The notes beneath the pieces are model-generated. The model searched no databases, was not told the origin of the DNA, and was given only the letters and a program-made list of their open reading frames with translations. Shown piece after piece: positions 2,619 to 21,532 of a stretch of 64,000 nt of DNA. The translations under genes were made by a program, and so were the position numbers. Location of the stretch: positions 186,001 through 250,000 of the forward strand of contig NZ_JALKBA010000002.1 of the NCBI RefSeq assembly GCF_023015805.1, given 5' to 3'. The stretch's first letter is position 1; each line of letters starts with the position of its first letter. The stretch comes from Cellulophaga sp. F20128 (GTDB lineage Bacteria; Bacteroidota; Bacteroidia; Flavobacteriales; Flavobacteriaceae).

Positions 2619-2675
2619 TAAACTGCTCTTAAAAGATAGTATTGTAAAATTAGCAGTAGTAAAGTCTTTAAACTA

Positions 2676-2687
2676 TGATAAATATCA
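2676..2687. promoter_or_regulatory. Crp/Fnr-type box upstream of usp
   Basis: TGATA-AA-TATCA has perfect inverted half-sites. On the minus strand a -7-like TAATTTTA (complement of 2645-2652) lies exactly 31 nt from the box, matching the spacing at three other boxes in this window. No such element exists at that distance on the opposite side, which has no gene start. Confidence 0.7.
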
Positions 2688-2712
2688 GTTTAAAAAAAAA
2701 TAGATGGTAATG

Positions 2713-3399
2713 TCACAAACCGCTAATAACGGTTTCTAATTTAGGCTGACTTACAATACGTATTTTTTTACCGGAAGTTTCTATCATTCCTTTCTTTTTA
2801 AATTCAGAAATAATTCTAATGGTAGATTCTGTTGCAGTACCTACAACATTGCTCATATCTTCTCTGCTTAAACTTAAAGTTAGGTACCCTTCTTTGTCTT
2901 CGCCAAAGGTATCTCTTAGGTAAATAAAAGCTTCTGCAATGCGTTGTTTTACTGTTTTTTGAGAAAAATTTACAATGACATCATCTGCTTCTCTTAAATC
3001 ATTCGCCATATGACGTAATACTTCTACCGCAAAACTTGGGTTGGTGTTTAAGGTGTGTAAAATGCTTTCCTTGGGGATAAAACAAAGGTCCATATCTTTA
3101 ATGGCAATGGCACTTAAATTAGCAGATTCTTCTGCAATCACAGAGCGTTGGCCTAATATCTCTCCTTTGGTTGCTAATTTTATTATTTGGTCTTTTCCGT
3201 TAGCACTTAGTTTGGATAATTTAGAAACACCGTCTTTTACACAGTATACACCATCTAACCTGTCGCCTTCTTCAAAAATTGCTTCCCCTTTTTTAAAAGT
3301 TTTAGAAATTTTTGAATCGGATACTTTTTTTAACTCATCTTTGCTCATTGCTCGCAAAGAGTTAAATTGACGAATAATACAATTTTCACACCTACCCAT
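2713..3399 (-). CDS. Crp/Fnr family transcriptional regulator (FNR-like, incomplete cysteine set)
   Basis: A 228-residue one-component regulator: cyclic-nucleotide-binding-like beta roll (about 25-120), dimer helix, and C-terminal winged helix (about 147-215). Cys4 and Cys7 (CENC), 99 residues before Cys106, match the spacing of E. coli FNR C20/C23/C122. The position of FNR Cys29 is Asn13 here; Cys53 is an extra cysteine. The recognition helix has E191 and R195, placed like CRP E181/R185. It is divergent from ccoI and shares box 3453-3464; a perfect TAGCTTTG -7 element on its own side suggests autoregulation. Likely master regulator of the neighbouring cbb3/nirK genes. The ligand (O2, NO or other) cannot be read from sequence. 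Confidence 0.88.
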   Translation of the reverse strand: MGRCENCIIRQFNSLRAMSKDELKKVSDSKISKTFKKGEAIFEEGDRLDGVYCVKDGVSKLSKLSANGKDQIIKLATKGEILGQRSVIAEESANLSAIAIKDMDLCFIPKESILHTLNTNPSFAVEVLRHMANDLREADDVIVNFSQKTVKQRIAEAFIYLRDTFGEDKEGYLTLSLSREDMSNVVGTATESTIRIISEFKKKGMIETSGKKIRIVSQPKLETVISGL

Positions 3400-3452
3400 A
3401 GTTTTGTTTTACCTGACATAGCAAAGCTACGGCTTCTATGTTGACCGAAAGC

Positions 3453-3464
3453 TGATATTTGTCA
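3453..3464. promoter_or_regulatory. Shared Crp/Fnr-type box between crp/fnr gene and ccoI
   Basis: TGATA-TT-TGTCA. Exactly 31 nt away on each side stands a -7-like element: TAGCTTTG on the minus strand (complement of 3422-3429, a full TAnnTTTG match) and GATCTTTG on the plus strand (3488-3495). This points to one site serving both divergent promoters. Confidence 0.72.
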
Positions 3465-3518
3465 TATAATTAAAAGATTCAATAAGAGATCTTTGTTTTT
3501 TGCTTAAGATACTTAAAA

Positions 3519-5894
3519 ATGGATAAAGAATTATGTTTTCATTGTGGAGATGCTTGTGATACGGTGCCAATTGTGTTTGATGAAAAACATTTTTGCTGTA
3601 ACGGATGTAAGACGGTCTATGAAATTTTTGAGTCTAACGACTTGTCCAATTATTACGATTTACAAGCTGCGGCAGGAGCAACGCCAAATGAGGTGGAAGG
3701 CAAGTACAACTTTTTAGATACCCCAGAAATCTTAGATAAACTGATAGAGTTTAATGACCAAAAGCATCAAATAGTTAACCTATACATACCGCATATACAT
3801 TGTAGTTCATGTATCTGGATTTTAGAAAATTTAAATAAATTGCAGAAAGCAATTAGTAGTTCTCAGGTAGATTTTCCTAAAAAAATGGTTCGTATAGGCT
3901 ACGATCCAGAAGAACTAAGCTTAAAGGAATTGGTGCTCTTACTCGTTAAAATTGGGTATGAGCCTTATATTTCCTTGGATGATTATGATAAAGGGAAAAA
4001 GAGGGTAGACCGCAGTCTTACTTATAAATTAGGGGTGGCCGGTTTTGCCTTTGGCAATGTTATGTTTTTGTCCTTTCCAGAGTATTTTGAGGTACAAGAA
4101 TTTTGGTTAGACCAGTATAAGAATTTGTTTAGATGGTTAATGTTCGCTTTTTCCTTACCCGTAGTTTTTTATTCGGCGCAAGATTATTTAAAATCGGCCT
4201 ATAAAAGCATTTCTTCTAAAATGTTAAATATTGATGTGCCAATAGCCTTGGGTGTTTTGGTACTTTTTATACGCAGTACTTTGGAGATTAGTTTTGATTG
4301 GGGTACGGGTTTTTTTGATAGTCTTACCGGCCTAATATTCTTTTTATTGTTGGGGAAATTTTTTCAACAAAAAACATATTCATTTTTATCTTTTGAGCGC
4401 GATTATAAATCGTATTTTCCAATTGCTGTAACCCGAATTTTGACTGGAGGTAAAGAAGAAACAGTGCAAGTTTATAGCATTAGAAAAGGAGACCGACTTT
4501 TAATTAGAAATGAAGAGTTAATTCCGGTTGATGGAATTGTTTTAAAGGGGAATGCAAGAATTGATTACAGTTTTGTTACTGGTGAGTCTGAGCCCGTAAA
4601 AAAAGTGTCTGGAGATAAGATACTGGCAGGGGGAAAACAATTGCAAGGAGCAATAGAAATGGAAGCGGTAAAGTCTGTTTCCCAAAGTTACTTAACTCAG
4701 CTTTGGGGGAATTCCGTTTTTTCTGTAGACAAAACCAGTAAATTTCAAACAATTACAGATAAAATTAGTCAACGTTTTACAATAGCTGTTTTAACGATTG
4801 CTTTTGTTGCTACCTTTATTTGGATGTTTGTAGATAGCAGCAAAGCCATAAACGTATTTACTGCGGTATTAATAATTGCTTGTCCCTGTGCAATTGCCTT
4901 GGCAGCTCCATTTACCTTAGGTAATATGTTGCGTGTTTTTGGTCGTAAAAAATTCTATTTAAAAAACACTCAAACTATAGAGCAATTGGCTCAACTAACT
5001 ACTGCAATTTTTGATAAAACAGGTACCCTAACTACCGCACAAAAAAGTACAGCGAGTTATGAGGGAATGCCCTTAAGTGAAGACGAAGAATCACTTTTAA
5101 AAAACACCTTAAGAGGATCTAACCACCCATTAAGTAGAACACTATATAATCTGTTGGCTGAGCATGATATTCTAACCTTAGATGATTATCAAGAACATTT
5201 AGGGAAGGGTATTATTGGGGTTTTAGAAGATAAAACGGTTAAAATAGGTTCCGCTCATTTTGTGGGTAATACAGCTGCAGTGAGCCAGGAAAATACAGCT
5301 GTTTATGTAAGTAGTAACAATGCATATAAAGGCCGCTTTGTTTTTTCTAATCAGTATAGAGGGGGTGTTTCTAAACTGTTCCGAGAAATGAAAAAATCCT
5401 TGGATTTGGGTGTTCTGTCGGGGGACAATGAAGGTGAAAAAGAGCGTTTAGAAGCCTTATTACCACAATTTACCCCTTTGTATTTTAATCAGAAACCAGA
5501 AGATAAACTAGATTTTATAAAGAGGTTACAAGACCAAGGGAAAACTGTCATGATGGTTGGCGATGGATTAAATGATGCAGGCGCTTTAGCACAAAGCGAT
5601 GTGGGTATTGTGGTATCTGAAAATGTGAATGTGTTTTCACCAGCCTGTGATGGTATCCTAGACGCCTCAAAATTTAAACAGTTGCATCAATATATAAAAG
5701 CGTCAAAAAGTGCAATGAAGATTATCAAACTCAGTTTTGTATTTTCGTTAATGTATAATGTAATAGGGTTGTATTTTGCAACAACCGGACAATTGATGCC
5801 TGTTATTGCGGCTATTTTAATGCCATTAAGTTCCATAAGTATTGTGCTATTTACTACGGTAGCGACCAATCTAGTTGGTAAAAAGTTAACGTAA
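3519..5894 (+). CDS. ccoI: Cbb3 oxidase-associated Cu+ P1B-type ATPase CcoI/FixI
   Basis: A 791-residue copper-exporting ATPase needed to supply copper for cbb3 oxidase assembly. The N-terminus has a cysteine-rich segment (CFHCGDAC, then CCNGC) typical of the CcoI type, then an HMA-like domain with HCSSC. It has multiple membrane helices, the TGES actuator, the ion-channel CPC (IIACPCAIALA), the DKTGTLTT phosphorylation loop and GDGLNDAGAL hinge. It is transcribed from the shared crp box, about 5 kb from the oxidase operon, and ends at a strong hairpin. Distinct from the copper-resistance ATPase at 37.3 kb by its N-terminus and context. Confidence 0.95.
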   Translation: MDKELCFHCGDACDTVPIVFDEKHFCCNGCKTVYEIFESNDLSNYYDLQAAAGATPNEVEGKYNFLDTPEILDKLIEFNDQKHQIVNLYIPHIHCSSCIWILENLNKLQKAISSSQVDFPKKMVRIGYDPEELSLKELVLLLVKIGYEPYISLDDYDKGKKRVDRSLTYKLGVAGFAFGNVMFLSFPEYFEVQEFWLDQYKNLFRWLMFAFSLPVVFYSAQDYLKSAYKSISSKMLNIDVPIALGVLVLFIRSTLEISFDWGTGFFDSLTGLIFFLLLGKFFQQKTYSFLSFERDYKSYFPIAVTRILTGGKEETVQVYSIRKGDRLLIRNEELIPVDGIVLKGNARIDYSFVTGESEPVKKVSGDKILAGGKQLQGAIEMEAVKSVSQSYLTQLWGNSVFSVDKTSKFQTITDKISQRFTIAVLTIAFVATFIWMFVDSSKAINVFTAVLIIACPCAIALAAPFTLGNMLRVFGRKKFYLKNTQTIEQLAQLTTAIFDKTGTLTTAQKSTASYEGMPLSEDEESLLKNTLRGSNHPLSRTLYNLLAEHDILTLDDYQEHLGKGIIGVLEDKTVKIGSAHFVGNTAAVSQENTAVYVSSNNAYKGRFVFSNQYRGGVSKLFREMKKSLDLGVLSGDNEGEKERLEALLPQFTPLYFNQKPEDKLDFIKRLQDQGKTVMMVGDGLNDAGALAQSDVGIVVSENVNVFSPACDGILDASKFKQLHQYIKASKSAMKIIKLSFVFSLMYNVIGLYFATTGQLMPVIAAILMPLSSISIVLFTTVATNLVGKKLT

Positions 5895-5930
5895 AAAGAG
5901 CAAGGTTAGAATAAGAATTGCTCTTTTTAC
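5891..5930. terminator. Bidirectional terminator between ccoI and the porin gene
   Basis: A 13-bp perfect inverted repeat (GTAAAAAGAGCAA / TTGCTCTTTTTAC) with an internal A/T run sits between converging stops at 5894 and 5946. The left arm overlaps the ccoI stop. Confidence 0.8.
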
Positions 5931-5945
5931 GATGTAAAAAAATGG

Positions 5946-7205
5946 TTAGTCTTTAGTATAACTTAAAAATTGAGGGCTAAAGGTAATCATTGCCCAAGCC
6001 CAGTTATTGGTCTTAGAAGCATCTCCACCTTTAATAATTTCCATAGTGTCAGAAGCAAACATTTGTGAATACCCAGCGTTAAATGTGATGTTGTTAGATA
6101 CTTTGTACCCTAGGGTAAGGTCAATTTCTGTGCCCAAATAAGAGTCTTGCTCAAGGTTGTTAGTAGCGACCACTGTAGCTGCAGAACTAAAAAAGTGAGG
6201 TGCTAAAATAGCAGAGAATTTATTTTTAGTGTAATTTAGGTTTGCATGTATATCTACTAAACCAACAGAGTTACTATGATTGCCAACATAAAAATAATCC
6301 ATTAACCCATTAAATTTGTGGTTGGTTCCAAACAATGGCGTAAAGGAATGTAATTTGCCATCGGTCTCATTCATAGCTGTGCCCGATAGATATTCTGCTC
6401 CGAGGCCTACTAAAAATTTAGGATTAAGGCTATAGCTTACTTGAGCACTTGCATTTAATGCTGCTACCTGTGTATTTTCTATTTTACCTGTTTGCGCATA
6501 TAGAGACGCATCGGCATTCCATTTGTTTTTATGTATATCACCCGTTATTCCAAAGGTTTGGTTGTATGCTACTTTTTGCTGGTTTGGATCTGTATAGGCA
6601 AAACCTGTATTTAAAAATAAAAGACTTATGTTAATTTGTTTCAAATGCGTGCTGTACCACAGGTACTGAAAATTTTTATAATTGTTTACCGTGTATTCTT
6701 GTTCAAAAACTGATTCGGAATTTTCATTTAGGGCAAAACCAATATCTAGTCTGCTTTTTGGAGTTGCCAAATATTTTATAAGTAAAGCATCATGGCTACG
6801 TGCCTGTTGTGCCCAGCCAACATTGCCAAAAATCCGATGGTTGTCATAAACAATTTCTTGGCGCCCTAACTTAAAACGCCACTGCCCTAAAATGGCTTCA
6901 GCCCATGCTTGGTGTAAAGCAGATCCATTACTGTCTGAGGGTGATAAGGTAGAAATATCTCCCCATGTTCTTACGTTTTGTAGTGAAATGTAGGTATGTA
7001 GGTCGGCATTTTTATACCCAAAATTTAGGCGTGTTCTTTGAGATACAAATGTAGCAGGATCAAAGGTTTCAGCGGTTAAGGTATTGAATCCATTTCTGTA
7101 TTCAAATCGTGGTCTTAATTCTGCATCTAGGTTAAATTCTTGTGCGTTAGATAGCGATAGGATGAAAACCATTCCTATGAAAATATAATTTTTATGAAAG
7201 TTCAT
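5946..7205 (-). CDS. Outer-membrane beta-barrel porin, alginate-export-like family
   Basis: A 419-residue protein with a cleavable signal peptide (about 1-21, ending SNA) followed by the LRPRFEYRNGF start typical of alginate_exp-type barrels. The remainder is alternating polar/aromatic strands (LGRQEIVYDN, LGYKVSNNITFNAGYSQMF), as in 16- to 18-strand porins. It is the last gene of the nirK operon, 1 nt from the Ric stop codon, suggesting a channel used in nitrite respiration rather than alginate export. Substrate is inferred from context only. Confidence 0.82.
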   Translation of the reverse strand: MNFHKNYIFIGMVFILSLSNAQEFNLDAELRPRFEYRNGFNTLTAETFDPATFVSQRTRLNFGYKNADLHTYISLQNVRTWGDISTLSPSDSNGSALHQAWAEAILGQWRFKLGRQEIVYDNHRIFGNVGWAQQARSHDALLIKYLATPKSRLDIGFALNENSESVFEQEYTVNNYKNFQYLWYSTHLKQINISLLFLNTGFAYTDPNQQKVAYNQTFGITGDIHKNKWNADASLYAQTGKIENTQVAALNASAQVSYSLNPKFLVGLGAEYLSGTAMNETDGKLHSFTPLFGTNHKFNGLMDYFYVGNHSNSVGLVDIHANLNYTKNKFSAILAPHFFSSAATVVATNNLEQDSYLGTEIDLTLGYKVSNNITFNAGYSQMFASDTMEIIKGGDASKTNNWAWAMITFSPQFLSYTKD

Positions 7206-7206
7206 T

Positions 7207-7935
7207 TTAGGTTGTTTTGGATAATTCTTTCTCTAATTGAATTGCTTTGGGAAAAAGAATATTGTTTTCTAAATGTACGTGTTGATGTAAGTCATCTTCA
7301 AATTCTTGTAGCTTGTTATACAGTGCTTTAAAGGTGTTGCAAGCCCCTTCAGGAGGAGTGTGGTTGTTGCTTAATACCGAAATTTCTTTTAAGATATCTC
7401 CTGCAACTTCATGTTCTTCTTCCATCATTTTGATGGGATCTTCAACATTTTCAAAGGGCGGTATGCTAACGTAAGTTGCACCATTTTGCTCTGCTATCAT
7501 CCGTTTTATAAAAGGAAATAGAATGAGCTCCTCTTTTTTCATATGTGCAGTTAATTCTTCTGCTATCGTATGAACGAGTTTATTGATAGCGATAACTTCG
7601 GTGTAATGGTGTCCGTGTACCTTGGCAACCCTGTCTGAATATTGAATAAGTAATGGGATGGCTTCCGTGACATAGGTATGATGGGTATTTACAATATAAT
7701 CCGCCAAGTAGTCTAAGGCCCAGGTCTTGTAGTTTTGGGTAATTAAAATTTTGGAATCTATGGCCAATAACTCTTTGGCTAATGTATTGAAATCTATTTT
7801 TTCTTTGGCGCAAGCTTTTTCCACAGAGATTCCCCCACCACAACAAAAGTCTATGCCGTATTTTTTAAATACATCCGCAGTTTTAATATTATCGGTTACC
7901 AAATCTGCCACTGTTTTGTTTTTAATTGTATCCAT
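7207..7935 (-). CDS. ric: Iron-sulfur cluster repair di-iron protein Ric (YtfE/ScdA family)
   Basis: A 242-residue cytoplasmic protein. The N-terminal DUF542 domain holds FCCGGG with two cysteines (about residues 31-32). The hemerythrin-like part carries the His/Glu set (HHTYVTEA, HGHHYTE, AHMKKEE, EEEHE, HQHVHLENN). The family repairs Fe-S clusters damaged by NO or oxidants. Position in the nirK operon fits defence against NO made by the nitrite reductase. Start ATG is 8 nt downstream of the SCO stop. Confidence 0.93.
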   Translation of the reverse strand: MDTIKNKTVADLVTDNIKTADVFKKYGIDFCCGGGISVEKACAKEKIDFNTLAKELLAIDSKILITQNYKTWALDYLADYIVNTHHTYVTEAIPLLIQYSDRVAKVHGHHYTEVIAINKLVHTIAEELTAHMKKEELILFPFIKRMIAEQNGATYVSIPPFENVEDPIKMMEEEHEVAGDILKEISVLSNNHTPPEGACNTFKALYNKLQEFEDDLHQHVHLENNILFPKAIQLEKELSKTT

Positions 7936-7943
7936 AGTGTTTT

Positions 7944-8654
7944 TTATTTTGATTCTTTAATTATTTGCGCCACAGTATCTGCATTGTTAACTCCTAATCC
8001 TTCTTGTTGGTGCACCATAACACCTTCTGTATTAAAAACACTGATGATGTTAGAATGTGAAAAATCAATTGGAGAAATCTGTTTGTAGCTCACGGCTAAG
8101 GCAGCGGCAAATTCTCTTGTGTCTTCAATTGATCCGGTTAAGAAAACAAATTGGTCATTGTCCATTTGATTTTCTTTCGCAAATTCTTTTAGTCGCGTAG
8201 GTGTGTCCGTAAGGGGATCTATACTAACAAATACTAACTTTACCTTGTTTTTTTGTTTGTCAGGGATTTGTTTTTCTATACTTCTCATATCAGAAACTAA
8301 TCTGGGACAAGCAGAAGTACATGAAGTATAAATCATAACCATAACAAGTACGTCACCTTTGAGGTCCATTAAGGAGATGGTATCATTGTTTTGGTTTTTC
8401 CATTTTGAGGGTAAATTAAAAATGGACATTTCCGGAATTTCCCCTTCATTTCTTAGGCTGTTGCTCGCCAAGGTCAAATCCATATGGCAAACTGGACATT
8501 GCTGTTGTTTTGCATAGGTTTTATCCCCTTCACAAAGCATAGGGCACTGGTATAGACCAGTGTCTTTTTGAGAAGTTTCTTTACAGGAAAAGGATACTAC
8601 TGTAATTAAAATAAGTAGAGCAATATTAATTTTTTTCAAATTATAGTTCTTCAT
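7944..8654 (-). CDS. SCO1/SenC-family copper chaperone lipoprotein with heavy-metal-binding (YHS-like) N-terminus
   Basis: A 236-residue protein with lipobox (VSFSC). Residues about 36-65 form a CPMLCEGD...CPVCHMDL metal-binding module like those in CopA and CusB of this window. The SCO thioredoxin fold follows, with the copper-binding CTSAC P (CxxxCP) motif and a downstream His (FSHSN). SCO proteins deliver Cu to oxidases; in this operon delivery to NirK, a copper enzyme, is the simplest reading. It overlaps the upstream SUMF1-like gene by 14 nt. Confidence 0.9.
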   Translation of the reverse strand: MKNYNLKKINIALLILITVVSFSCKETSQKDTGLYQCPMLCEGDKTYAKQQQCPVCHMDLTLASNSLRNEGEIPEMSIFNLPSKWKNQNNDTISLMDLKGDVLVMVMIYTSCTSACPRLVSDMRSIEKQIPDKQKNKVKLVFVSIDPLTDTPTRLKEFAKENQMDNDQFVFLTGSIEDTREFAAALAVSYKQISPIDFSHSNIISVFNTEGVMVHQQEGLGVNNADTVAQIIKESK

Positions 8655-9420
8655 TTGGTATCTCTTTTACACATCTAAATCCTAAGTTTCTCATGGCGTA
8701 ATTTGCTTTTATACTCCCCCTAAAGGCGTAGCGCATAAAGGCTGCGTAGTTCATTAAATCTGTAGCGCCGATAGCGGCGGTTCCACAGAATAAATTACTA
8801 TCCTTGTCTACATCTTTTCTGGATTCACCTGAGATTAAGACCGAGTTAAAATCTCCAGTCCATTCCCAAACGAGTCCGTGTAAATCATAAACACCCCAAT
8901 AATTTTTAAAAGTACTACCTATCTTGTTTGTGTTTGTTTTTGGGGTTTCATACCAACTTAAAATGTACTGGTTGTAGGTTTCTTTTTGCCGCGCATCTGC
9001 TAGTTGTTCATCGGCCATTGCAGCATACTCCCATTCATCAATGGTAGGTAACCTTTTGTTTTGGCATTCACAGTAATTTTTAGCAGCAAACCATGATACA
9101 TTTGTAATAGGTGCATCTTTGTCAAAATTTTGCCCAAAGATGGTATCATTTTTCCAGGTGGAAAGGTAGTTTTTATCCGCAAACAGACCTTTTACATTAG
9201 AGCGTTTCCATCGAGGATATTCCTTGACGAAATCTAAAAACTGCTGATTCGTAACCGGATAGACATCCATTTTAAGCGTACTTACTTTTACCTGGCTAGA
9301 ATCACTGCCATAAAGAGGGATGTAAGAGCCTCCTTTAATGGTAACCATTGGGCTAACTTGTGCTTCTGCCATAGAGAATGACAGGAATAAGATGGCTAAA
9401 GTAAGTCCAATGGTTTTCAT
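8641..9420 (-). CDS. SUMF1/FGE-sulfatase-fold protein of the nirK cluster
   Basis: A 259-residue exported protein (signal peptide about 1-20). The SUMF1 fold is shown by TNQQFLDFVKEYPRWK, PITNVSWFAAKNYCEC, RLPTIDEWEYAA, WEWTGDF and the terminal NLGFRC. The active-site cysteine segment of true formylglycine-generating enzymes (YRCAAR region) is replaced by MRYAFRGS, so sulfatase activation is unlikely. It lies 35 nt after nirK and overlaps the SCO gene. A role in maturation or stability of NirK is an inference from position. Confidence 0.85.
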   Translation of the reverse strand: MKTIGLTLAILFLSFSMAEAQVSPMVTIKGGSYIPLYGSDSSQVKVSTLKMDVYPVTNQQFLDFVKEYPRWKRSNVKGLFADKNYLSTWKNDTIFGQNFDKDAPITNVSWFAAKNYCECQNKRLPTIDEWEYAAMADEQLADARQKETYNQYILSWYETPKTNTNKIGSTFKNYWGVYDLHGLVWEWTGDFNSVLISGESRKDVDKDSNLFCGTAAIGATDLMNYAAFMRYAFRGSIKANYAMRNLGFRCVKEIPNEEL

Positions 9421-9455
9421 AATTTTTAGTTTTGGTAACTGTTGTCAATGTTGTT

Positions 9456-10922
9456 TTAATGCTTGTTTTTTACCGTGTTAACCATTTTTGTGGTAACAAC
9501 GGTTTTGTTGTTGCCCCAACTGTGATATACGTAAGTTAATACATCTGCAATTTCTTCAGATGAAATTACCTGTCGGGTCATTACACTATTGTATTTCTGT
9601 CCGTTTACAGTTATTTCACCAGATTTTCCATTCAATACAATATCTATAGCTCTAGTTATATCAGCATTTAAATAATCGGACTTAGCTAAAGGAGGAAAAG
9701 CGTTTGGTATACCTTGACCTTCTGCTTGGTGACATGCAAAACAGGTTTGAGAATAAATTTGTTTGCCCGCCGTCATTTGCTCTTCTAGAGATTTAACAGT
9801 TTCTACTGCAACCACTTCTTTTTTGCCATTAGGCATTTCTTGTATACCGCTTCCTTCAGGGTGATAAATACCTTCTTGAATAGTACCAGAGTAAATGTCC
9901 TTCTTTTCTTCCCCAGTAACATTTAGCATACCTAATGCACCTTTGTTAAATGCTCTAAAAATTGAATGGTCTACCAGTATAAAAGTACCAGGAACATCTA
10001 CCTTAAATTCAACAATTGCAGCTCCACCAGCTGGAATAAGTGTGGTTTGTACGTTTTCATTAACTAAAGAACCTCCTTCGACATGTACTTTGTCAAAAAT
10101 TTCGCCAATTACATGAAAAGAGGATACAAGATTGGGTCCGCCGTTACCTACGTAAAGTCGAACTGTTTCGCCAACCTCTGCAACAATAGCATTGTCACCT
10201 GTAAGTGCATCTACACTACCGTTGAAAACTACATAATCTGCATTTTCATCTACGGCTTTTTGCATATCAAAAGATTGTAGACCAGGCTCACCATTTTTAC
10301 CTTTTGTGTAAAAGTCACCTTGCATTATATAGTATTCACGATCCACTGGAGGTAAGCCACCTTTTGGTTCTACTAAGATTAAACCATACATACCGTTTGC
10401 GATATGCATTCCTACTGGTGCTGTTGCACAGTGATACACATATAACCCAGGATTTAATGTTTTAAAGGAAAAAGTAATTTCGTGTCCAGGCGCCACAAAT
10501 GAAGAAGTAGCTCCTCCACCAGGACCAGTTACTGCGTGTAAATCTATGTTGTGTGGTAGTTTATTGTCTGGATGGTTTTTTAAGGTGAATTCTACTTCAT
10601 CGCCAATACGCGTTCTTATGAAACTACCTGGAACACTACCACCAAAGGTCCAATAGTTATAGGTGACACCATTGGTCATTGTTCCCTCTTTTTCGAGAAC
10701 TTCCATATTTACTAGTAATTTTTTTGCGGCGCGTTTGCCAACAGATCGGGGAACATTAGGCGGAGAAGTTAATGTAGCCACTAATTCTCCGTGGGTTTTT
10801 ATAGTTTCTGAATTTTCAGCTACGCTTTCTGCTTTTTTACAGCTAGAGAATAACAGTAAAATAACAATAAGGGAGTAGATAACTTTATGGGTATGCGAGT
10901 AACAGCTCAATTGATTTTTCAT
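9456..10922 (-). CDS. nirK: Copper-containing nitrite reductase NirK fused to a C-terminal cytochrome c domain
   Basis: A 488-residue lipoprotein (lipobox FSSC28) that reduces nitrite to NO in the periplasm. Two cupredoxin domains carry type-1 ligands H124, C165, H173 and M178, type-2 ligands H129, H164 and H319, and catalytic D127/H270 ([39 protein letters not shown]). A mono-haem cytochrome c domain follows (CFACH at 394-398, candidate axial M448), presumably an internal electron donor. First gene of a five-gene operon; Crp/Fnr box at 10991-11002 with a -7-like GAACTTTG at the fixed 31-nt spacing. Confidence 0.96.
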
Positions 10923-10990
10923 AATAATTAGTTTTTAGCTAGAAGGTTTTTAATGGGATCAAAGTTCCATTCAAATATTTATTTAAAGTA

Positions 10991-11002
10991 TGATATATAT
11001 CA
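10991..11002. promoter_or_regulatory. Perfect palindromic Crp/Fnr-type box shared by nirK and the cco operon
   Basis: TGATATATATCA is a perfect palindrome. The -7-like TATTTTTG (11026-11033) lies 31 nt to the right, before ccoS. On the other strand GAACTTTG (complement of 10960-10967) lies 31 nt away, before nirK. If transcription starts about 6 nt past the -7 element, the box is centred near -42, the classic class II activator position. Confidence 0.78.
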
Positions 11003-11053
11003 TATATTGTAAAAATTAACAATATTATTTTTGTCGTAGAAATACAGGTAGGT

Positions 11054-11245
11054 ATGAGTGTAATTTATGTGTTACTAGCAATAAGTATAGTAGTAGCGGT
11101 CTTTTTCTTTATATTATTTATAGTCTCGGTGAAAAGCGGTCAATATGATGATGCTTATACACCGTCTGTACGTATGCTTTTTGAAGATGAACTAGTAAAA
11201 GAGGACTCAAAAACTCAGAAAAGTAAAAAAAATCAAACAAACTAA
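11054..11245 (+). CDS. ccoS: Cbb3-type cytochrome oxidase assembly protein CcoS
   Basis: A 63-residue protein with one N-terminal membrane helix (VIYVLLAISIVVAVFFFILF) followed by the DDAYTPSVRMLFEDE segment characteristic of CcoS. CcoS is needed for cofactor insertion into cbb3 oxidase. First gene of the cco operon, 20 nt after the -7 element and 13 nt before ccoNO. Confidence 0.9.
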   Translation: MSVIYVLLAISIVVAVFFFILFIVSVKSGQYDDAYTPSVRMLFEDELVKEDSKTQKSKKNQTN

Positions 11246-11258: not shown

Positions 11259-13442
11259 ATGGAAGTACAACAGTTTTATTACGATAACAAGATCGTAAAG
11301 AAATTTATCTATGCTACAATGTTTTGGGGTATTGTAGGGATGTCAGTAGGTCTACTATTAGCCTTTATGTTTCTTTTTCCAAATGTAACCGATGGTATTT
11401 CATGGTTGAGTTTTGGAAGGCTAAGACCATTACATACCAATGCAGTAATTTTTGCCTTTGTTGGTAATGCAATTTTTGCGGGAGTGTATTATTCTACACA
11501 GCGATTGTTAAAAGCCAGAATGTTTAGTGATGGCCTTAGTAAATTTAACTTTTGGGGATGGCAAGCGATAATTGTTGCTGCAGCCATTACCTTACCGCTT
11601 GGGTATAGTACTTCTAAAGAATACGCAGAATTAGAATGGCCTATAGATATTGCTATTGCCGTAGTTTGGGTAGCTTTTGGTTGGAACCTAATTGGTACTA
11701 TGTTGCGCAGAAGACAGCGACATTTATATGTAGCTATCTGGTTTTATTTGGCAACATTTGTAACCGTAGCTGTACTTCATATTTTTAATAGTTTAGAGTT
11801 GCCTGTTAGTGCTTTAAAAAGTTATTCAGTTTATGCTGGTGTACAAGATGCCTTGGTGCAATGGTGGTACGGACACAATGCGGTTGCCTTTTTCTTGACC
11901 ACACCATTTTTAGGTTTAATGTATTACTTTGTGCCAAAAGCGGCAAATAGACCAGTGTACTCATACCGTTTGTCTATAGTGCATTTTTGGTCTTTAATAT
12001 TTATTTATATCTGGGCAGGACCACACCATTTATTGTATACAGCATTACCAGAATGGGCTCAGAATTTAGGTGTGGCATTTTCTATTATGTTATTGGCTCC
12101 ATCTTGGGGAGGTATGATCAACGGATTGTTAACCTTGCGTGGTGCTTGGGATAAGGTGCGTACAGATCCTACCCTTAAATTTATGGTAGTGGCCATTACA
12201 GGATACGGGATGGCAACATTTGAAGGTCCTTTACTTTCTTTAAAAAATGTAAATGCTATAGCCCACTTTAGTGACTGGATTATTGCCCATGTTCACGTTG
12301 GGGCGTTAGCTTGGAATGGATTTTTAACTTTTGGTATGATCTATTGGATGGTACCTAAAATGTTTAAAACAAAATTGCATTCTATAGGTTTAGCAAATGC
12401 TCACTTTTGGATTGGAACATTGGGAATAATACTTTATACCTTACCAATGTACGTTGCTGGGTTTACACAAGCCTTAATGTGGGAAGAATTTAACCCAGAT
12501 GGAACCTTAGTTTACGGTAACTTTTTAGAAACTGTAAAAGAAATTATTCCAATGTATTGGATGCGTGCCATAGGTGGTAGTATGTATATTGTGGGTGCGT
12601 TTATAATGTTATATAACATAGTTAAAACAATACGTTCAGGAGAAAAAGTAGAAGACGAATTAGCGGAAGCAGCTGCACTTACTAGAGTTTCCAAAAGGAG
12701 AACAAAAGGGGAAACATACCACACTTGGTTAGAGCGTAAACCAGTACAGTTAACAATTTTAGCTACCGTAGCAATCTTAATTGGAGGTATAGTTCAAATT
12801 GTACCAACCATTTTGGTAAAATCCAACATACCCACGATAACGAGTGTAAAACCTTATACTCCCTTAGAATTGGAGGGAAGGGATTTATACATCAGAGAAG
12901 GTTGCGTGGGTTGTCATTCACAGATGGTACGCCCATTTAGGGGAGAGGTAGAGCGTTACGGAGAGTATGCGAAAGCAGGAGAGTTTGTTTATGATCATCC
13001 GTTTTTATGGGGAAGTAAGCGTACTGGGCCCGATTTGTTACGAATAGGGGGTAAATACTCAGATAGCTGGCATTTAAATCATATGTATGATCCTCAAAGT
13101 ACGTCTTCTGGTTCAATAATGCCGGCCTACCAGTGGTTGGTGCATGATGAACATGACAGAAGCAATATAAAAACTAAAATGGAAGCTATGGTAACATTAG
13201 GTGTGCCATATACAGAAGAAGATATTGCCAATGCCGTTCAAACGATGGATGAGCAAGCAACAAAAATTGAAAAAAATCTGTATTCAGATCCAGATTTCGC
13301 TAAAAGTTATGAGGCAGATAAACAAAATGCCAAAGAAAACGGACTTCCTTTTATAGAAATGAAGGATAGAGAAATTGTATCTTTAATTGCGTATTTACAG
13401 CGTTTGGGTACAGACATTAAGATAAAAGACAGCGAAGAATAA
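11259..13442 (+). CDS. ccoNO: Fused cbb3 cytochrome c oxidase subunits I and II (CcoN-CcoO)
   Basis: A 727-residue fusion. The CcoN part (about 1-475) has ~12 helices with low-spin haem His (RPLHTNAV), CuB/haem ligands GHNAVAFF, AGPHHLLY and AHVHVGA. A further helix near residue 500 leads into the CcoO part with one haem-binding GCVGCH (about residue 547) and the MVRPFRGE motif. The enzyme reduces O2 with high affinity at the inner membrane. The fused form is common in Bacteroidota. No separate ccoO is present. Confidence 0.97.
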   Translation: MEVQQFYYDNKIVKKFIYATMFWGIVGMSVGLLLAFMFLFPNVTDGISWLSFGRLRPLHTNAVIFAFVGNAIFAGVYYSTQRLLKARMFSDGLSKFNFWGWQAIIVAAAITLPLGYSTSKEYAELEWPIDIAIAVVWVAFGWNLIGTMLRRRQRHLYVAIWFYLATFVTVAVLHIFNSLELPVSALKSYSVYAGVQDALVQWWYGHNAVAFFLTTPFLGLMYYFVPKAANRPVYSYRLSIVHFWSLIFIYIWAGPHHLLYTALPEWAQNLGVAFSIMLLAPSWGGMINGLLTLRGAWDKVRTDPTLKFMVVAITGYGMATFEGPLLSLKNVNAIAHFSDWIIAHVHVGALAWNGFLTFGMIYWMVPKMFKTKLHSIGLANAHFWIGTLGIILYTLPMYVAGFTQALMWEEFNPDGTLVYGNFLETVKEIIPMYWMRAIGGSMYIVGAFIMLYNIVKTIRSGEKVEDELAEAAALTRVSKRRTKGETYHTWLERKPVQLTILATVAILIGGIVQIVPTILVKSNIPTITSVKPYTPLELEGRDLYIREGCVGCHSQMVRPFRGEVERYGEYAKAGEFVYDHPFLWGSKRTGPDLLRIGGKYSDSWHLNHMYDPQSTSSGSIMPAYQWLVHDEHDRSNIKTKMEAMVTLGVPYTEEDIANAVQTMDEQATKIEKNLYSDPDFAKSYEADKQNAKENGLPFIEMKDREIVSLIAYLQRLGTDIKIKDSEE

Positions 13443-13655: not shown

Positions 13656-13659
13656 TACT

Positions 13660-14535: not shown

Positions 14536-14580
14536 GAATATTAAACATTGGGATCTAATCCGTAATTAATAGCTTAACTA

Positions 14581-15996: not shown

Positions 15997-16005
15997 ATAA
16001 TTGTT

Positions 16006-16452: not shown

Positions 16453-16454
16453 AT

Positions 16455-17156
16455 ATGTTAATTTCTGCACTTATTTTAGGATTAATGGGGAGTTTGCACT
16501 GCGTTGGTATGTGTGGTCCCATTGCTTTTATGTTACCAGTAGACAGGGATAGTTCGTTTAAAAAAATGGTTCAAATATTTATTTACCATTTTGGAAGGTT
16601 ATTGGCTTACGGTAGTATAGGTCTTATTTTTGGTTTGTTAGGCAAAGGACTTTATGTTTTTGGATTGCAGCAAAAATTATCAATCTTTATTGGAATAGTG
16701 ATGATTGTTGTTGTGTTAATGCCATCAAAAATTTTTCAGAAATACAATGTATCTATACCGCTCTACAAGCTAATTTCAAAGGTGAAGTCTAGATTGGGCA
16801 AAGAACTAAAAAAAAGAACCCCAGATACCTTTTTAACCATTGGATTTTTAAACGGGTTTTTACCCTGTGGTTTGGTGTATATGGCACTATTTGGAGCCAT
16901 TGCTATGGGGAATGCGGGGCAAGGCGCTTTGTATATGATTCTCTTTGGAGTGGGCACGATACCACTAATGACCGTTGCCGTTTATTTTGGCAGCATGTTA
17001 AAGGGTGTTAATCGGAAAAAAGTACAACAATTAATTCCAGTTTTTGTGGTTGTTATTGGCTTGCTATTTATTCTTAGAGGGCTAGGGCTCGGAATACCAT
17101 ATGTGTCTCCTAAACCCGTAGTTGAAATGGTTTCTACCGCCGTGGAATGTAATTAA
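16455..17156 (+). CDS. TauE/SafE (UreH/DsbD-like) membrane protein of the cbb3 operon
   Basis: A 233-residue protein with about six helices. The family motif is at the N-terminus (SLHCVGMCGPIAFM), with a second half-repeat NGFLPCGLVYMALFGA. Proteins of this fold commonly follow FixH in Bacteroidota oxidase operons; a part in copper or haem handling during assembly is likely, but the cargo is not known from sequence. It starts 2 nt after ccoH. Confidence 0.87.
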   Translation: MLISALILGLMGSLHCVGMCGPIAFMLPVDRDSSFKKMVQIFIYHFGRLLAYGSIGLIFGLLGKGLYVFGLQQKLSIFIGIVMIVVVLMPSKIFQKYNVSIPLYKLISKVKSRLGKELKKRTPDTFLTIGFLNGFLPCGLVYMALFGAIAMGNAGQGALYMILFGVGTIPLMTVAVYFGSMLKGVNRKKVQQLIPVFVVVIGLLFILRGLGLGIPYVSPKPVVEMVSTAVECN

Positions 17157-17174
17157 TATAAAAAAATTAATAGA

Positions 17175-18443
17175 ATGAATATTGTATCTGCGGCGGAAGC
17201 CGTAAAGTTAATAGTATCTGGTAATAGGGTTTTTTTACAAGGTGCGGCCATGACACCAAATGTATTAATAGATGCTTTGTGTGATAGGTATACCGAGTTA
17301 GAAAACGTAGAAATTGTTTCTATTCATACAGAAGGCAAAGCAAAGTATGCACAAGAACCATACAGCCATAGCTTTAAGATGAATAGTTGCTTTGTGGGGG
17401 GTAATGTTCGTCAAGTTGTAAACACCACCCAAGGCGATTATATTCCCATTTTTTTAAGTGAGATTCACTTGTTGTTTAGAAACGATATTTTGCCTTTAGA
17501 CGTAGCTGTTGTACAAGTATCGCCACCAGATAAGCACGGGTATTGTTCTTTGGGAGTATCTGTAGATGTTACCTTACCAGCCATACAAAAAGCAAAAAAA
17601 GTTATCGCACAGATAAACCCGTTGGTGCCTAGAACGCATGGCGATGGTATCATACATAGTAGTAATATAGACTTCGCAATATCCGTTGATACACCGATAC
17701 ACACCCACGGCATTACCCCAATATCTGAAATAGAACAAAAAATAGGCAAGCACGTGGCTGGTTTAATAGAAGATGGTGCTACCTTACAAATGGGTATTGG
17801 GAACATTCCTAATGCAGTACTCACTAATTTAGGCAGTCATAAGCGTTTGGGGATACATACTGAAATGTTTTCTGATGGGGTATTGCCTTTAATTGAAAAA
17901 GGTATAATTACAGGTGAGGATAAAGTGGTAAAGCAAGGAAAAGTGGTAACTTGTTTTGCAGTGGGCTCTCAAAAATTATACGACTTTGTAGATGATAATC
18001 CTTTGGTGCATTTTAAGGAGGCTGCCTATACAAATGACACTGCAATTATTCGTAGAAACCCTAAGGTCACCGCAATAAATAGTGCTATCGAAATTGATTT
18101 AACTGGACAAATTTGTGCAGATACTATTGGTAGTAGGCAATATTCGGGGGTAGGAGGTCAAATGGACTTTATTCGTGGTGCATCATTGTCTCAAGGTGGT
18201 AAGCCTATTTTTGCAATGCCGTCTATAACCGCCAAAGGAATCTCTAAGATCACTCCTTTTTTAAAACAAGGAGCTGGGGTTACTACAACTAGGGCGCATG
18301 TGCATTATGTAGCTACAGAATACGGAGTTGTGAATCTTTTTGGGAAAAACTTACAGGAAAGAGCCAAGGCATTAATTTCTATTGCACATCCTAAATTTAG
18401 AGAAGAATTAGACAAAGAAGCTTATAGGCGCTTTAAAAATTAA
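17175..18443 (+). CDS. Acetyl-CoA hydrolase/CoA-transferase (4-hydroxybutyrate CoA-transferase-like)
   Basis: A 422-residue cytoplasmic family I CoA-transferase. Both halves are seen: N-terminal domain with PPDKHGYCSLG, and C-terminal domain with the MGIGNIPNAV glycine loop, EMFSDG (candidate catalytic Glu) and GGQMDFIRGA. It would move CoA between acetyl-CoA and an organic acid. It follows the cbb3 genes by 18 nt with no terminator, so it looks co-transcribed; why is not evident. Confidence 0.88.
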   Translation: MNIVSAAEAVKLIVSGNRVFLQGAAMTPNVLIDALCDRYTELENVEIVSIHTEGKAKYAQEPYSHSFKMNSCFVGGNVRQVVNTTQGDYIPIFLSEIHLLFRNDILPLDVAVVQVSPPDKHGYCSLGVSVDVTLPAIQKAKKVIAQINPLVPRTHGDGIIHSSNIDFAISVDTPIHTHGITPISEIEQKIGKHVAGLIEDGATLQMGIGNIPNAVLTNLGSHKRLGIHTEMFSDGVLPLIEKGIITGEDKVVKQGKVVTCFAVGSQKLYDFVDDNPLVHFKEAAYTNDTAIIRRNPKVTAINSAIEIDLTGQICADTIGSRQYSGVGGQMDFIRGASLSQGGKPIFAMPSITAKGISKITPFLKQGAGVTTTRAHVHYVATEYGVVNLFGKNLQERAKALISIAHPKFREELDKEAYRRFKN

Positions 18444-18459
18444 TGAATACCTTACGATT

Positions 18460-19362
18460 ATGTCAGACACAACCAATAAGATTAAACAAAAATATGAGCA
18501 ACTGGGAGAAAATCCAGAAACATATCTAGAAGGGCTTTTGCATTCAAAACCCATAAATTATTGGGATTATATAGGGGTAGATACTTTGCTGTCCCTTCAA
18601 AAACCAAAGACAGATTTTAAGGATGAAACTATTTTTATTATGTACCATCAATTAACAGAACTGCTGTTAAAAATGATGCGACATGAGTTGGAGCAGATAG
18701 TAGAGGAAAATGATGCTTCCGAAACGTTTTTAATTGGGAAATTAGGCCGACTTAATCGGTATACGGCTATGCTAATATCGTCTTTTGATATTATGAAAGA
18801 TGGAATGAATTATGATGATTATAATGTGTTTAGAACCGCTTTAACCCCAGCAAGTGGTTTTCAAAGCGCACAATTTAGATATTTGGAGCTGTATTGTACT
18901 CGTATAGAAAATTTAATTAATGAAGCAGGAAAAACAAGACTCTCCAAGACACCAAGTATCGAAGAATTGTTTGAAAATATCTATTGGAAAGATGCTGGAT
19001 TAAATAGGGAGACTGGTAATAAAACAATCACTTTACAAGATTTTGAGGAAAAGTATTTGGATAGCTTTATAACGTTAGCAAAAAAATTGCAGGGAAATAC
19101 TGTGGAAGACAAACTACTTCAAATGAAAAATGTATCCGCTGAATTAAAGGGTAAATTAAAAGAGTTTGATCACCTTTACAATATAGTTTGGCCTATGGTT
19201 CATTTAAAAACGGCAGCTCATTATTTAGATAAAGAAGGCGAAGCCAAAGCAGCTACGGGTGGGTCTAAATGGAAAAAATATTTACACCCTAAATTCCAGC
19301 AGCGTAAATTTTTTCCATCACTTTGGACAAAAGAAGAACAACTGAACTGGGGTAAAGAATAA
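18460..19362 (+). CDS. Tryptophan 2,3-dioxygenase family haem protein
   Basis: A 300-residue all-helical protein with the TDO signatures: DETIFIMYHQLTELLLK (distal His63), FRTALTPASGFQSAQFR (substrate Arg), MVHLKTAAHYL (proximal His248 candidate) and TGGSKWKKYL, ending with FPSLW. Family members oxidise L-tryptophan to N-formylkynurenine using O2. No other kynurenine-pathway gene is nearby. It sits 16 nt after the CoA transferase and 4 nt before a hemerythrin gene, in the cbb3 operon. Confidence 0.88.
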   Translation: MSDTTNKIKQKYEQLGENPETYLEGLLHSKPINYWDYIGVDTLLSLQKPKTDFKDETIFIMYHQLTELLLKMMRHELEQIVEENDASETFLIGKLGRLNRYTAMLISSFDIMKDGMNYDDYNVFRTALTPASGFQSAQFRYLELYCTRIENLINEAGKTRLSKTPSIEELFENIYWKDAGLNRETGNKTITLQDFEEKYLDSFITLAKKLQGNTVEDKLLQMKNVSAELKGKLKEFDHLYNIVWPMVHLKTAAHYLDKEGEAKAATGGSKWKKYLHPKFQQRKFFPSLWTKEEQLNWGKE

Positions 19363-19366
19363 AATA

Positions 19367-19828
19367 ATGAAACAAAAACCCATCAAAAGAGATATAGCAC
19401 TACAAGCAATAAGCCGGGAGCATCATTTTGGGTTATTATTGTGTTGGAAAATAAGAACAGGATTCGCAAAGAAAGTGTCCCCAGATAGAATTAAACAATA
19501 TGTAAATTGGTTTTATAAAAATCATATCATAGACCACTTTAAGGTAGAAGAAGAATATATATTTCCCATTTTAGGGAATGATTCAGATTACATTAAAAGT
19601 GCACTTGCAGATCATAGGAGATTAAAGCGCCTTTTTACAGGAGATAAAGATCTAGAAAAATCCTTGAGTAATTTAGAAGAAGAATTAGAGCAGCACATTC
19701 GGTTTGAAGAACGCGTTGTTTTTAATGAAATTCAAAAAATAGCAACCAAAGAACAGCTGAGTGTTATTCGTAACTTGCACACCGATGAAAAATTTATAGA
19801 TAACACTGCTGATGAGTTTTGGAAATAG
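19367..19828 (+). CDS. Hemerythrin-like domain protein
   Basis: A 153-residue four-helix protein with di-iron ligand pattern: REHHFGLL, HIIDHFKVEEEYIFP, DHRRLKRLF and EQHIRFEERVVF. No signal peptide. Such proteins bind O2 or NO or serve in iron storage; in this operon handling of O2 or NO is plausible. Start ATG follows the dioxygenase stop by 4 nt. Confidence 0.9.
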   Translation: MKQKPIKRDIALQAISREHHFGLLLCWKIRTGFAKKVSPDRIKQYVNWFYKNHIIDHFKVEEEYIFPILGNDSDYIKSALADHRRLKRLFTGDKDLEKSLSNLEEELEQHIRFEERVVFNEIQKIATKEQLSVIRNLHTDEKFIDNTADEFWK

Positions 19829-19858
19829 TAGCGTTTATAGCACGTAAAATTTGATGAC

Positions 19859-20194
19859 ATGCCAAGGATCGATGACCAAGTTTATACTTTTACCTTTTAT
19901 GATGAGGTAGGAGAAAAGTATGAGGCAAGTTTTGTTGTCAATGAATACCATAGTCTTATGGAGTTGCTTTTTGATAAATATGCAGAAGACTGGGGAGATT
20001 GTAGAGGTAGAGCTTGGTGCGGCACCTGCCATATTGAAATTTTAGATGGAATTGTTGAGGAGGCAATGGATGCAGACGAAAGGAATACGTTGTCTAAACT
20101 GACAAATACGGTTAAAACAAGTCGCTTGGCTTGTCAAATTCCTGTAAATTCTAAATTGAACAACCTCGTTTTTAAAATTTTAAAAGACAATTAA
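19859..20194 (+). CDS. [2Fe-2S] ferredoxin-like protein
   Basis: A 111-residue plant-type ferredoxin fold with cluster ligands in CRGRAWCGTC (C-x5-C-x2-C) and a distant fourth Cys in RLACQIP. Likely an electron carrier, perhaps for the dioxygenase or hemerythrin encoded just upstream. Last gene of the plus-strand operon; its stop overlaps the convergent gene's stop by a few bases, with no terminator between them. Confidence 0.88.
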   Translation: MPRIDDQVYTFTFYDEVGEKYEASFVVNEYHSLMELLFDKYAEDWGDCRGRAWCGTCHIEILDGIVEEAMDADERNTLSKLTNTVKTSRLACQIPVNSKLNNLVFKILKDN

Positions 20195-21396
20195 TCTTTA
20201 GCCGTAAGCCATGTTGTAAATAGGTATAAAAGACTAACTACAAGGCATAAACTACCTAACATTAGTAACTTAAAATAAGCTGTTATTAATGGTAAATTTT
20301 GCCATATAATAAATCCTTTGTAGAAAATAAGTCCTTCCGTAAGGGCAAAAGCCAATAGATATAAATAATACCCTTTTTTAGAGAGCTTTATTAACCTGAA
20401 ATAATCTAAAAATAGAAATAAGCTAATAGTTACAACACCTAAAAAAGTCCAATGCAAATAACCAATTGTGAAATCTAAAATGGTGACTGCTAAATTTGCA
20501 AAATAAGGCAACGCAGTAAGCAGTTGTAATATCATTTTAAGGAGAACTAAAACACCTATCGTTTTTAATACTAATAATTGAAACTTATTAAAAATGGCTT
20601 GGGTGTTCTTCCTATGGTTTATAAGAAACTTTAGTAGTTGAGTTAATCCGTAGAGTTGAAGCATTGCGCCTATACCTCCAATAAGATACAAAAAGAATGG
20701 GGGTTCAGTAAACAAGGTAGACAGAGAAAAGGTAGCTACTATGCCAAGATTTATACTGTAAAAAATACGCCTAAAAACGGTTTTAGGTATAATTAACTGT
20801 TGTGTTTCTAAAATATACACCAGTATGCCCAGTAATGCCATCATCATCCAGCCATTGTACTGAAAATGCAAGTAGAAATAGATAGCCATGCGGTACCATA
20901 TAGATGTGGCTCCTAACGTACTCATAATACCTCCCAACATCCAAGGACCTATGCTGGAGATTACCATAAACCAAAGGGCGACAGAAATACACTTGTAGGA
21001 ATTTTTTGTTTTGATTTCCGTAGCCGTATGTTTTTTAAAGAACCAAAAAAACCAATAGGTAGCTATTAAAAATAAAGTTGAAAAGACAATAGAAAACAGG
21101 GCGTATCCTTGAAATGGAAAAGTACCTAACATTCCAATTAAAGTAAGTTGAGTAAACCAAAATAAATAGGTGTACTTTTTTTGAAGCTGGAACTTCTCTA
21201 GGTATATCTTGTAAATAACAGTTGTTAGGGCAATATAGACCCAGCCGAGTAATGCAATATGCGAATGGGTATGAACAAAAAATTTAAACGTTATGGGAAT
21301 TTCAAACACATAAAAAGAACGTAAAATTAAACCTAACAAAGCAGCAATTAAAAAGTATCCCAGCGCTACTTTAGAATGGGTTTTAAGATGGTTCAT
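20191..21396 (-). CDS. Polytopic membrane protein resembling a degenerate haem-copper oxidase subunit I
   Basis: A 401-residue protein with about 12 helices. HTHSHIALLGWVY (residues 42-54) resembles the low-spin haem helix of CcoN (RPLHTNAVIF). LHFQYNGWMMMALL (H177) and IGYLHWTFLG (H315) fall where later ligand helices would be, but the CuB His pair (PHHLLY in CcoN) appears as EPPFFLY. It could bind haem without being an oxidase. Alternatives: an NnrS-like or unrelated membrane protein. It is divergent from the 603-residue gene and shares box 21451-21462. Confidence 0.55.
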   Translation of the reverse strand: MNHLKTHSKVALGYFLIAALLGLILRSFYVFEIPITFKFFVHTHSHIALLGWVYIALTTVIYKIYLEKFQLQKKYTYLFWFTQLTLIGMLGTFPFQGYALFSIVFSTLFLIATYWFFWFFKKHTATEIKTKNSYKCISVALWFMVISSIGPWMLGGIMSTLGATSIWYRMAIYFYLHFQYNGWMMMALLGILVYILETQQLIIPKTVFRRIFYSINLGIVATFSLSTLFTEPPFFLYLIGGIGAMLQLYGLTQLLKFLINHRKNTQAIFNKFQLLVLKTIGVLVLLKMILQLLTALPYFANLAVTILDFTIGYLHWTFLGVVTISLFLFLDYFRLIKLSKKGYYLYLLAFALTEGLIFYKGFIIWQNLPLITAYFKLLMLGSLCLVVSLLYLFTTWLTAKD

Positions 21397-21450
21397 AATT
21401 TAACTGAATAATTAGGGCGTAAAAATCTCGAAATAAAAATAATTAATTGA

Positions 21451-21462
21451 TGACAAATATCA
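21451..21462. promoter_or_regulatory. Crp/Fnr-type box between the oxidase-like membrane gene and the 603-residue gene
   Basis: TGACA-AA-TATCA. To the right, GTCTTTTG (21486-21493) lies at the same 31-nt spacing as in the other promoters. To the left, GATTTTTA (complement of 21420-21427) is a weaker -7-like element at the same distance. Confidence 0.62.
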
Positions 21463-21532
21463 TAGAATAGCGCCATTAATAGTGGGTCTTTTGTGTAATT
21501 AATTAAAATGATTATAAAAGGAACGGTTATTT

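Follow-up and report, generated by a model that had tools for sequence, protein, structure and literature searches.

The window analysed here, a 64,000-nucleotide (nt) stretch of the 4.17-Mb genome of Cellulophaga sp. F20128 (contig NZ_JALKBA010000002.1, positions 186,001 to 250,000), carries four palindromic boxes of the form TGAYA-N2-TRTCA next to genes for a Crp/Fnr-type regulator, a nitrite reductase and a cbb3 oxidase. A regular-expression scan of these 64 kb placed the boxes at 2676-2687, 3453-3464, 10991-11002 and 21451-21462, where the original prediction had put them, and returned no fifth. On all seven sides that face a gene start, an octamer was found at one identical offset (TAATTTTA, TAGCTTTG, GATCTTTG, GAACTTTG, TATTTTTG, GTCTTTTG and GATTTTTA). 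The octamers were as first quoted, with TTT at positions 5-7 in 7/7 and endings in TTTG (5/7) or TTTA (2/7). The eighth side (2676 box, plus side) looks onto the 3' end of the regulator gene and reads TGTCACAA, without TTT, in line with the earlier remark that this side lacks the octamer. The spacers measured 23 nt from box to octamer and 27 nt from box to TTT. The original prediction had given exactly 31 nt to the octamer; the identity of the offset at all seven sides held, and the figure of 31, counted from the end of the box, proved to include the eight bases of the octamer itself. Across the window, the frequency per position was 0.048 for TTT and 0.009 for TTTG, against 7/7 and 5/7 at the boxes. 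The octamer was present on both sides at three of the four boxes, so that these three palindromes would each serve divergent genes, with one such promoter per side.

The first predicted Crp/Fnr-type operator (TGATAAATATCA, 2676-2687; none of the four palindromes is assigned a strand) has its promoter side toward usp. The putative -7 element of usp (TAATTTTA, 2645-2652, minus strand) lies 23 nt from the box, and the gene (1776-2618, minus strand) encodes a universal stress protein (PF00582). The regulator gene, labelled crp (2713-3399, minus strand), encodes an FNR-like Crp/Fnr protein of 228 amino acids (aa) with cysteines 4, 7, 53 and 106. The second predicted operator (TGATATTTGTCA, 3453-3464) is common to crp and ccoI, with candidate -7 elements for crp (TAGCTTTG, 3422-3429, minus strand) and ccoI (GATCTTTG, 3488-3495, plus strand) on its two sides. 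A heavy-metal P-type ATPase is encoded by ccoI (3519-5894, plus strand; TIGR01525 just above the cut-off, PF12156, PF00122), a name given from its context, since it adjoins crp and the cbb3 genes.

The third palindrome (TGATATATATCA, 10991-11002) would act on nirK through GAACTTTG (10960-10967, minus strand) and on ccoS-ccoNO through TATTTTTG (11026-11033, plus strand). The product of nirK (9456-10922, minus strand) is a copper nitrite reductase with a cytochrome c domain (TIGR02376 above the cut-off, PF00034); ccoS (11054-11245, plus strand) is an open reading frame matching TIGR00847 / PF03597, and ccoNO (11259-13442, plus strand) encodes a fusion of cbb3 oxidase subunits I and II, recognised by profile matches. 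On the same strand after nirK, the region 5946-10922 also holds genes for a formylglycine-generating-like and an SCO-like protein (both labelled by eye), a RIC iron-sulfur repair protein and an alginate-export-type porin. The genes from nirK through the porin probably form one operon read from the 10991 box.

The fourth palindrome (TGACAAATATCA, 21451-21462) is common to genes for a 401-aa and a 603-aa protein. The predicted -7 element of the 401-aa gene is GATTTTTA (21420-21427, minus strand); in that of the 603-aa gene, GTCTTTTG (21486-21493, plus strand), T replaces the A of the sequence TAnnTTTG discussed below. The 401-aa protein (20191-21396, minus strand) looks membrane-bound and gave no credible Pfam or NCBIfam match, and the 603-aa protein (21533-23344, plus strand) gave none in Pfam, NCBIfam or the PDB sequences. 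Because one FNR-type operator is common to both, the two proteins look like members of a low-oxygen regulon.

Recurrence of the spacing beyond the window

A looser box, TGAYN4RTCA, was barely enriched in the window (7 matches vs 3.57 expected, with 9/100 shuffles as high) and TTT is a common triplet, which would fit a coincidence of A+T-rich intergenic DNA. Because the loose box alone carries so little, the weight of the evidence lies in the spacing and in its repeat in independent promoters.

The whole genome contained 24 strict boxes, 12 of them intergenic and 12 in reading frames, vs 14 matches to the reversed pattern. TTT was found at offset 27 on 13/15 gene-start sides (start within 100 nt), on 0/9 other intergenic sides and on 3/24 in-frame sides. 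An intergenic side at locus L118, with the start 224 nt off and TTTG one nucleotide further, was counted as having no start; otherwise the first figure becomes 13/16. One in-frame side has a gene start 184 nt away. Outside the window alone, the octamer spacing was present on 6/8 gene-start sides vs 3/32 others (Fisher P=0.0005; in this and the other Fisher and rank tests, related genomes were taken as independent). The genes behind these boxes include hemN, a TrxB-like reductase gene followed by a 2Fe-2S ferredoxin gene, a gene for a metallo-beta-lactamase/rhodanese protein and two further usp-like genes, one identified by PF00582 and the other by eye. The crude gene caller missed a 43-aa gene of locus L114, which was entered by hand in this count; it encodes a single-helix peptide (L114:3267-3398, minus strand) and is preceded by a box that has TATCTTTA at the exact spacing. 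Looser boxes at the exact spacing were seen at two loci, with start codons 54 and 56 nt on, and four other loose-box matches examined were chance-like.

The original prediction had proposed searching related genomes for the box with its spacing, and there the spacing recurred. The sample, drawn from named genomes, consisted of 79 loci with related regulators and, together with the window, gave 303 usable box sides. Strict boxes accounted for 295 sides in the 79 loci, vs 12 for the reversed pattern. TTT was present on 155/216 gene-start sides (start within 300 nt here) and TTTG on 108/216, vs TTT on 2/67 sides toward a gene's 3' end; the remaining sides had TTT in 3/8 (reading frame), 0/10 (far) and 2/2 (no gene called). 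Once look-alikes were removed, the comparison stood at 65/104 gene-start sides vs 0/48 sides facing 3' ends. TTT stood at the same offset in 20/20 usp promoters with a strict box (window counted in), on 41/44 sides toward ccoNO and on 9/9 toward ccoS. Among ccoI promoters, window included, TTTG was found at offset 26-28 in 63/64 while mean spacer identity was 0.34: the spacing was kept and the spacer sequence drifted.

Boxes lying between one gene start and one 3' end (n=65) had TTT at 27 on exactly one side in 59 cases, on both in 2 and on neither in 4. With gene starts on both sides (n=69), TTT was present on both in 27, on one in 30 and on neither in 12. Polymerases at the two sides of one dimer may be mutually exclusive.

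The geometry was also found in genomes of the family that had not been selected for it. In 14 such genomes, 53/138 of the box-TTTG pairs among the matches listed were at gap 27, and at the remaining 20 gaps in the range 17-37 the average was 4 pairs and the maximum 11 (12 rows of our own genome and one row of another genome are outside this count; some boxes with two TTTG in range count twice). Strict box, 23 nt and NAnnTTTR together gave 377 matches in 60 family genomes vs 9 for the reversed pattern. A sweep of the phylum detected the strict box at this spacing in 23/148 genomes, that is in 13/15 of the own family and 10/133 others, with the control at 0 throughout; outside the family the strict form is rare.

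Further out, the spacing was associated with the looser box. At 28 regulator loci across the class, which we take to be GTDB's Bacteroidia, TGAYN4RTCA had TTTG at 27 on 16/76 sides and on none at 26 or 28; the mean count at other offsets was 0.9, and 12/28 loci were involved. At the same loci, TTTG at 27 was found on 2/12 sides of the strict box and on 0/10 of an E. coli-like TTGA-N6-TCAA box. When TANNTTTG was demanded behind the looser box in 60 class genomes, 82/150 of the matches listed fell at one gap, with 17 and 25 one nucleotide either side and 2-7 at each other gap. This profile covers 150 of 231 matches, from 35 of the 60 genomes with our own included, and some boxes are counted twice; at least one match at that gap was present in 28 of the 35. 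A control palindrome with exchanged half sites gave 2/48 at that gap in the same 60 genomes. Chance as the origin of the spacing was rejected on the test outside the window, the 3'-end control, the gap profiles and the control palindrome, and we regard a coincidence as extremely improbable.

Promoter type and proposed class II geometry

Class II CRP/FNR promoters of Escherichia coli carry a TGA-N6-TCA palindrome with the half site TTGAT, centred at the class II activator position, -41.5, and FNR targets serve low-oxygen respiration. The same geometry could be derived for the boxes described above. Mapped Sigma-A promoters of Flavobacterium psychrophilum (SM1-3) have TAnnTTTG at -12 to -5, according to the available portions of PMC9723704, and this position together with the 23-nt gap places the box centre at -41.5, with the start set by analogy. 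A start about 6 nt after the octamer had been proposed originally; by the same reckoning 5 nt are expected. The operator core would extend from -47 to -36, at or over the -33 region, with A/T flanks reaching about -53 on one side and -30 on the other.

The octamers conformed to the housekeeping-sigma promoter type. Among 72 promoters that were chosen for TTT and de-replicated, T had a frequency of 0.61 at -12 and A of 0.94 at -11, and position -5 was G (0.75) or A (0.24). Their consensus was AAAA-NA-TGAYAWWTRTCA-TA-TTTT-N17-TAnnTTTG, ending in the sequence that the original prediction cited as the known Bacteroidota -7 element. The TA emerged unasked, with A at 0.97 at offset 24 in the 155 promoters chosen only for TTT. 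A T-tract right after the box was considered as a separate -33 element. The frequencies of T at offsets 2-5 were 0.67, 0.87, 0.75 and 0.60 on sides facing 3' ends vs 0.76, 0.83, 0.76 and 0.69 on gene-start sides; because the tract is about as frequent where no gene starts, it belongs to the operator and this candidate was rejected.

Collectively, we consider it very probable that an FNR-type activator binds the boxes as its operators and acts in class II fashion at -41.5, in support of the class II reading (centre near -42) of the original prediction; the most likely candidate is the protein encoded at 2713-3399. The promoters would be of the Bacteroidota housekeeping-sigma type, with TAnnTTTG at -12 to -5, and the centre of each box would lie at this distance from their transcription start. 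The bound dimer would adjoin and overlap the -33 region and recruit RNA polymerase as class II activators do, probably at low oxygen, sensed through an iron-sulfur cluster. The genes found behind the boxes (ccoI, ccoS-ccoNO, nirK, hemN and usp, whose regulation is predicted) are consistent with this: the cbb3 oxidase and its assembly, nirK and hemN would make an FNR-like set of targets.

An operator that with its flanks covers the -33 region, from about -52 to -30, could also repress by hiding this region, the genes being released once the protein leaves. We find this improbable. The T-tract at -33 is the operator's own and is found on promoterless sides too, so the promoters would look weak unaided; and one fixed distance is what contact with the polymerase would demand, where a blocking protein should tolerate many. 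An FNR-like protein is expected to be bound to DNA at low oxygen. Under oxygen limitation in F. psychrophilum, the cbb3 oxidase is strongly induced and the haem biosynthesis enzymes are up (PMC9723704, available portions), the same functions as behind the boxes here, and this speaks for activation from -41.5.

The probable regulator, an FNR-like protein, and its own promoter

The protein encoded at 2713-3399 has a cNMP-binding-like domain (PF00027, 67.9 bits) and a Crp-type helix-turn-helix (PF13545, 53.5 bits); its closest orthologues, from Cellulophaga, are 87-89% identical. Cysteines 4, 7, 53 and 106 were invariant in 78/78 orthologues aligned, one of the 79 loci having no full protein. The cysteines of E. 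coli FNR are C20, C23, C29 and C122. Cys 4, 7 and 106 align to three FNR cysteine positions of solved structures (PDB 5e44, 5cvr and others; we take the FNR of 5e44 and 5cvr to be that of Aliivibrio fischeri), presumably C20, C23 and C122 in E. coli numbering. In the 78 orthologues, position 29 is occupied by N, S or T and never by Cys; C53, which aligns to Ala in the solved FNR, is invariant instead. The domain families are thus those of FNR of known structure, with three cysteine positions in common and the fourth different, and the NCBIfam Fnr model scored 91.7 bits vs a cut-off of 228. We call the protein FNR-like because the canonical FNR cysteine set is incomplete. C53 would be the fourth cluster ligand. 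All four cysteines were found in 27 of the 30 best-scoring relatives across the class (own genome and one family member included); the other three lack C4, C53 or all four. Relatives L134-L161 showed the same cysteine set in 25/28, and L159 has Met at 53.

Several observations weigh against the proposed reading or its choice of regulator. TTT was missing at this offset on 61/216 gene-start sides in related loci, on 40/65 crp promoters with a strict box and on 2/8 gene-start sides outside the window in our own genome, namely at L118 (TAATTTAG, 1 nt off) and at L119, where the box has CC in its middle. The assignment to this regulator is weakened because promoter counts and orthologue presence match imperfectly: 10/20 family genomes without a close orthologue keep at least 3 such promoters, and 4/36 with one have fewer than 3. 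The genome also encodes further HTH_Crp_2 matches, three of them over the cut-off at C48:276-285 kb and a fourth below it on C59, and the box may be used by a different Crp/Fnr protein.

Such a protein, perhaps a sensor of nitric oxide or nitrite, might accordingly be the main one bound at the boxes, or several might share them, the 2713-3399 protein being just one user; nirK and the RIC-type repair protein in its probable operon suggest nitrosative signals. We judge this unlikely, though clearly less so than repression from -41.5. A strict box points toward the regulator gene itself in 65 loci, window included, and family genomes bearing the orthologue have more such promoters, with a median of 7 (n=36) vs 2.5 without (n=20; P=0.0006; close orthologue defined as E <= 1e-50, not counting the own genome and 3 genomes with weak matches). 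The aligned paralogues L124, L125 and L127 have none of the four cysteines and a different recognition helix; L126 gave the same paralogue as L124, and a 210-aa paralogue was outside the comparison. More Crp/Fnr genes were seen at L131:4467-5964 and 12218-12916, with usp-like and sulfate-transporter-like genes near by (labelled by eye). A TGATTTAAATCA box precedes one of them (5284-5964) by 47 nt, and no clear octamer stands 23 nt from that box.

The promoter of the regulator gene had been listed among the activated ones. In the window, its octamer does lie at the same offset; crp was rejected as a conserved activated target. Among the 65 crp promoters, TAnnTTTR started at offset 23 in 18, at 9-11 in 27 (12-14 nt closer), at 19-21 in 6, at 34 in 6 and at none of these offsets in 8, and the 9-11 state was seen in 0/64 ccoI promoters. 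An octamer at 9-11 would put the box centre at -27.5 to -29.5, in the spacer just behind -33, and this suggests repression by polymerase block. Within the 65, the 23-nt state was restricted to Cellulophaga, Arenibacter and Croceivirga, with 3 changes on a quick protein tree in which many branches are weakly supported. At five regulators from other families of the class, the gene's own box likewise carries TTTG at 27, so that either state may be the older one.

As a tentative joint reading, which we hold plausible but somewhat short of probable, the Bacteroidia would use a spacing code in which an octamer at 23 nt (-41.5) activates and one at 9-11 nt (-27.5 to -29.5) represses, and the sensor would be a separate FNR lineage holding its cluster on CX2C-X45-C-X52-C. 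One palindrome would then activate ccoI and repress the fnr-like gene in 27/65 loci, including Maribacter, Flavobacterium, Lacinutrix and Aureivirga. In Cellulophaga, Arenibacter and Croceivirga (18/65), the fnr side would be at the activating spacing and negative feedback turned positive.

Relation to known systems and meaning

To our knowledge, there are few descriptions of how activators are placed relative to promoters in Bacteroidota. The arrangement proposed here resembles E. coli class II promoters in the palindrome centre at -41.5, a regulator of the Crp/Fnr superfamily and targets in low-oxygen respiration. It differs in the promoter, which is of the -33/-7 type (TAnnTTTG) and not -35/-10, in the half site A-TGAYA, and in the symmetric A and T tracts of the operator near -53 to -50 and -33 to -30.

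Another comparison is offered by BT4338 of Bacteroides thetaiotaomicron, whose family name we take, apart from one published wording, to be Crp/Fnr. In the available portions of PMC6989115, BT4338 is an activator whose palindrome precedes a putative -7 sequence at fusA2, at a distance that these portions do not give; its operator is wwwTATGTTnTAnAACATAwww and its signal carbon limitation. The wording is that of PMC8510549, where MalR is called a Crp/Fnr-family homologue, applied here to BT4338. Both systems would have a Bacteroidota activator with a palindrome upstream of the -7 element, and they differ in operator sequence and signal. The BT4338 operator pattern matched in 3/148 genomes across the phylum, too few for a gap profile. 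In a computational regulon analysis, the CRP/FNR homologues encoded in Flavobacteriales bins were predicted to sense carbon in the manner of MalR (PMC8510549, available portions). These proteins belong to the same order and to another subgroup than the regulator studied here; the MalR motif used there comes from Bacteroides, and no FNR-type protein or spacing rule was found in the portions available.

The F. psychrophilum promoters have the same TAnnTTTG at the same position, and the main text of PMC9723704 contains neither 'fnr' nor 'crp' (0 occurrences each), so that it ties no such activator site to them. The box-octamer geometry was not found in the available portions of the open-licence literature searched, including PMC8510549, PMC9723704, PMC6989115 and PMC12040651, which is weak evidence of novelty. 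The mechanism itself is known, here on a promoter type for which those portions gave no description of it; what would be new is how far the spacing extends across the class, its difference at the gene of the regulator and the set of cysteines.

Bacteroidota promoters differ from the textbook type. If the proposed geometry is true, start sites, the direction of regulation and low-oxygen regulons would be readable from sequence in very many genomes of the group, and the unusual cysteine set would offer a testable new way of holding an oxygen-sensing cluster.

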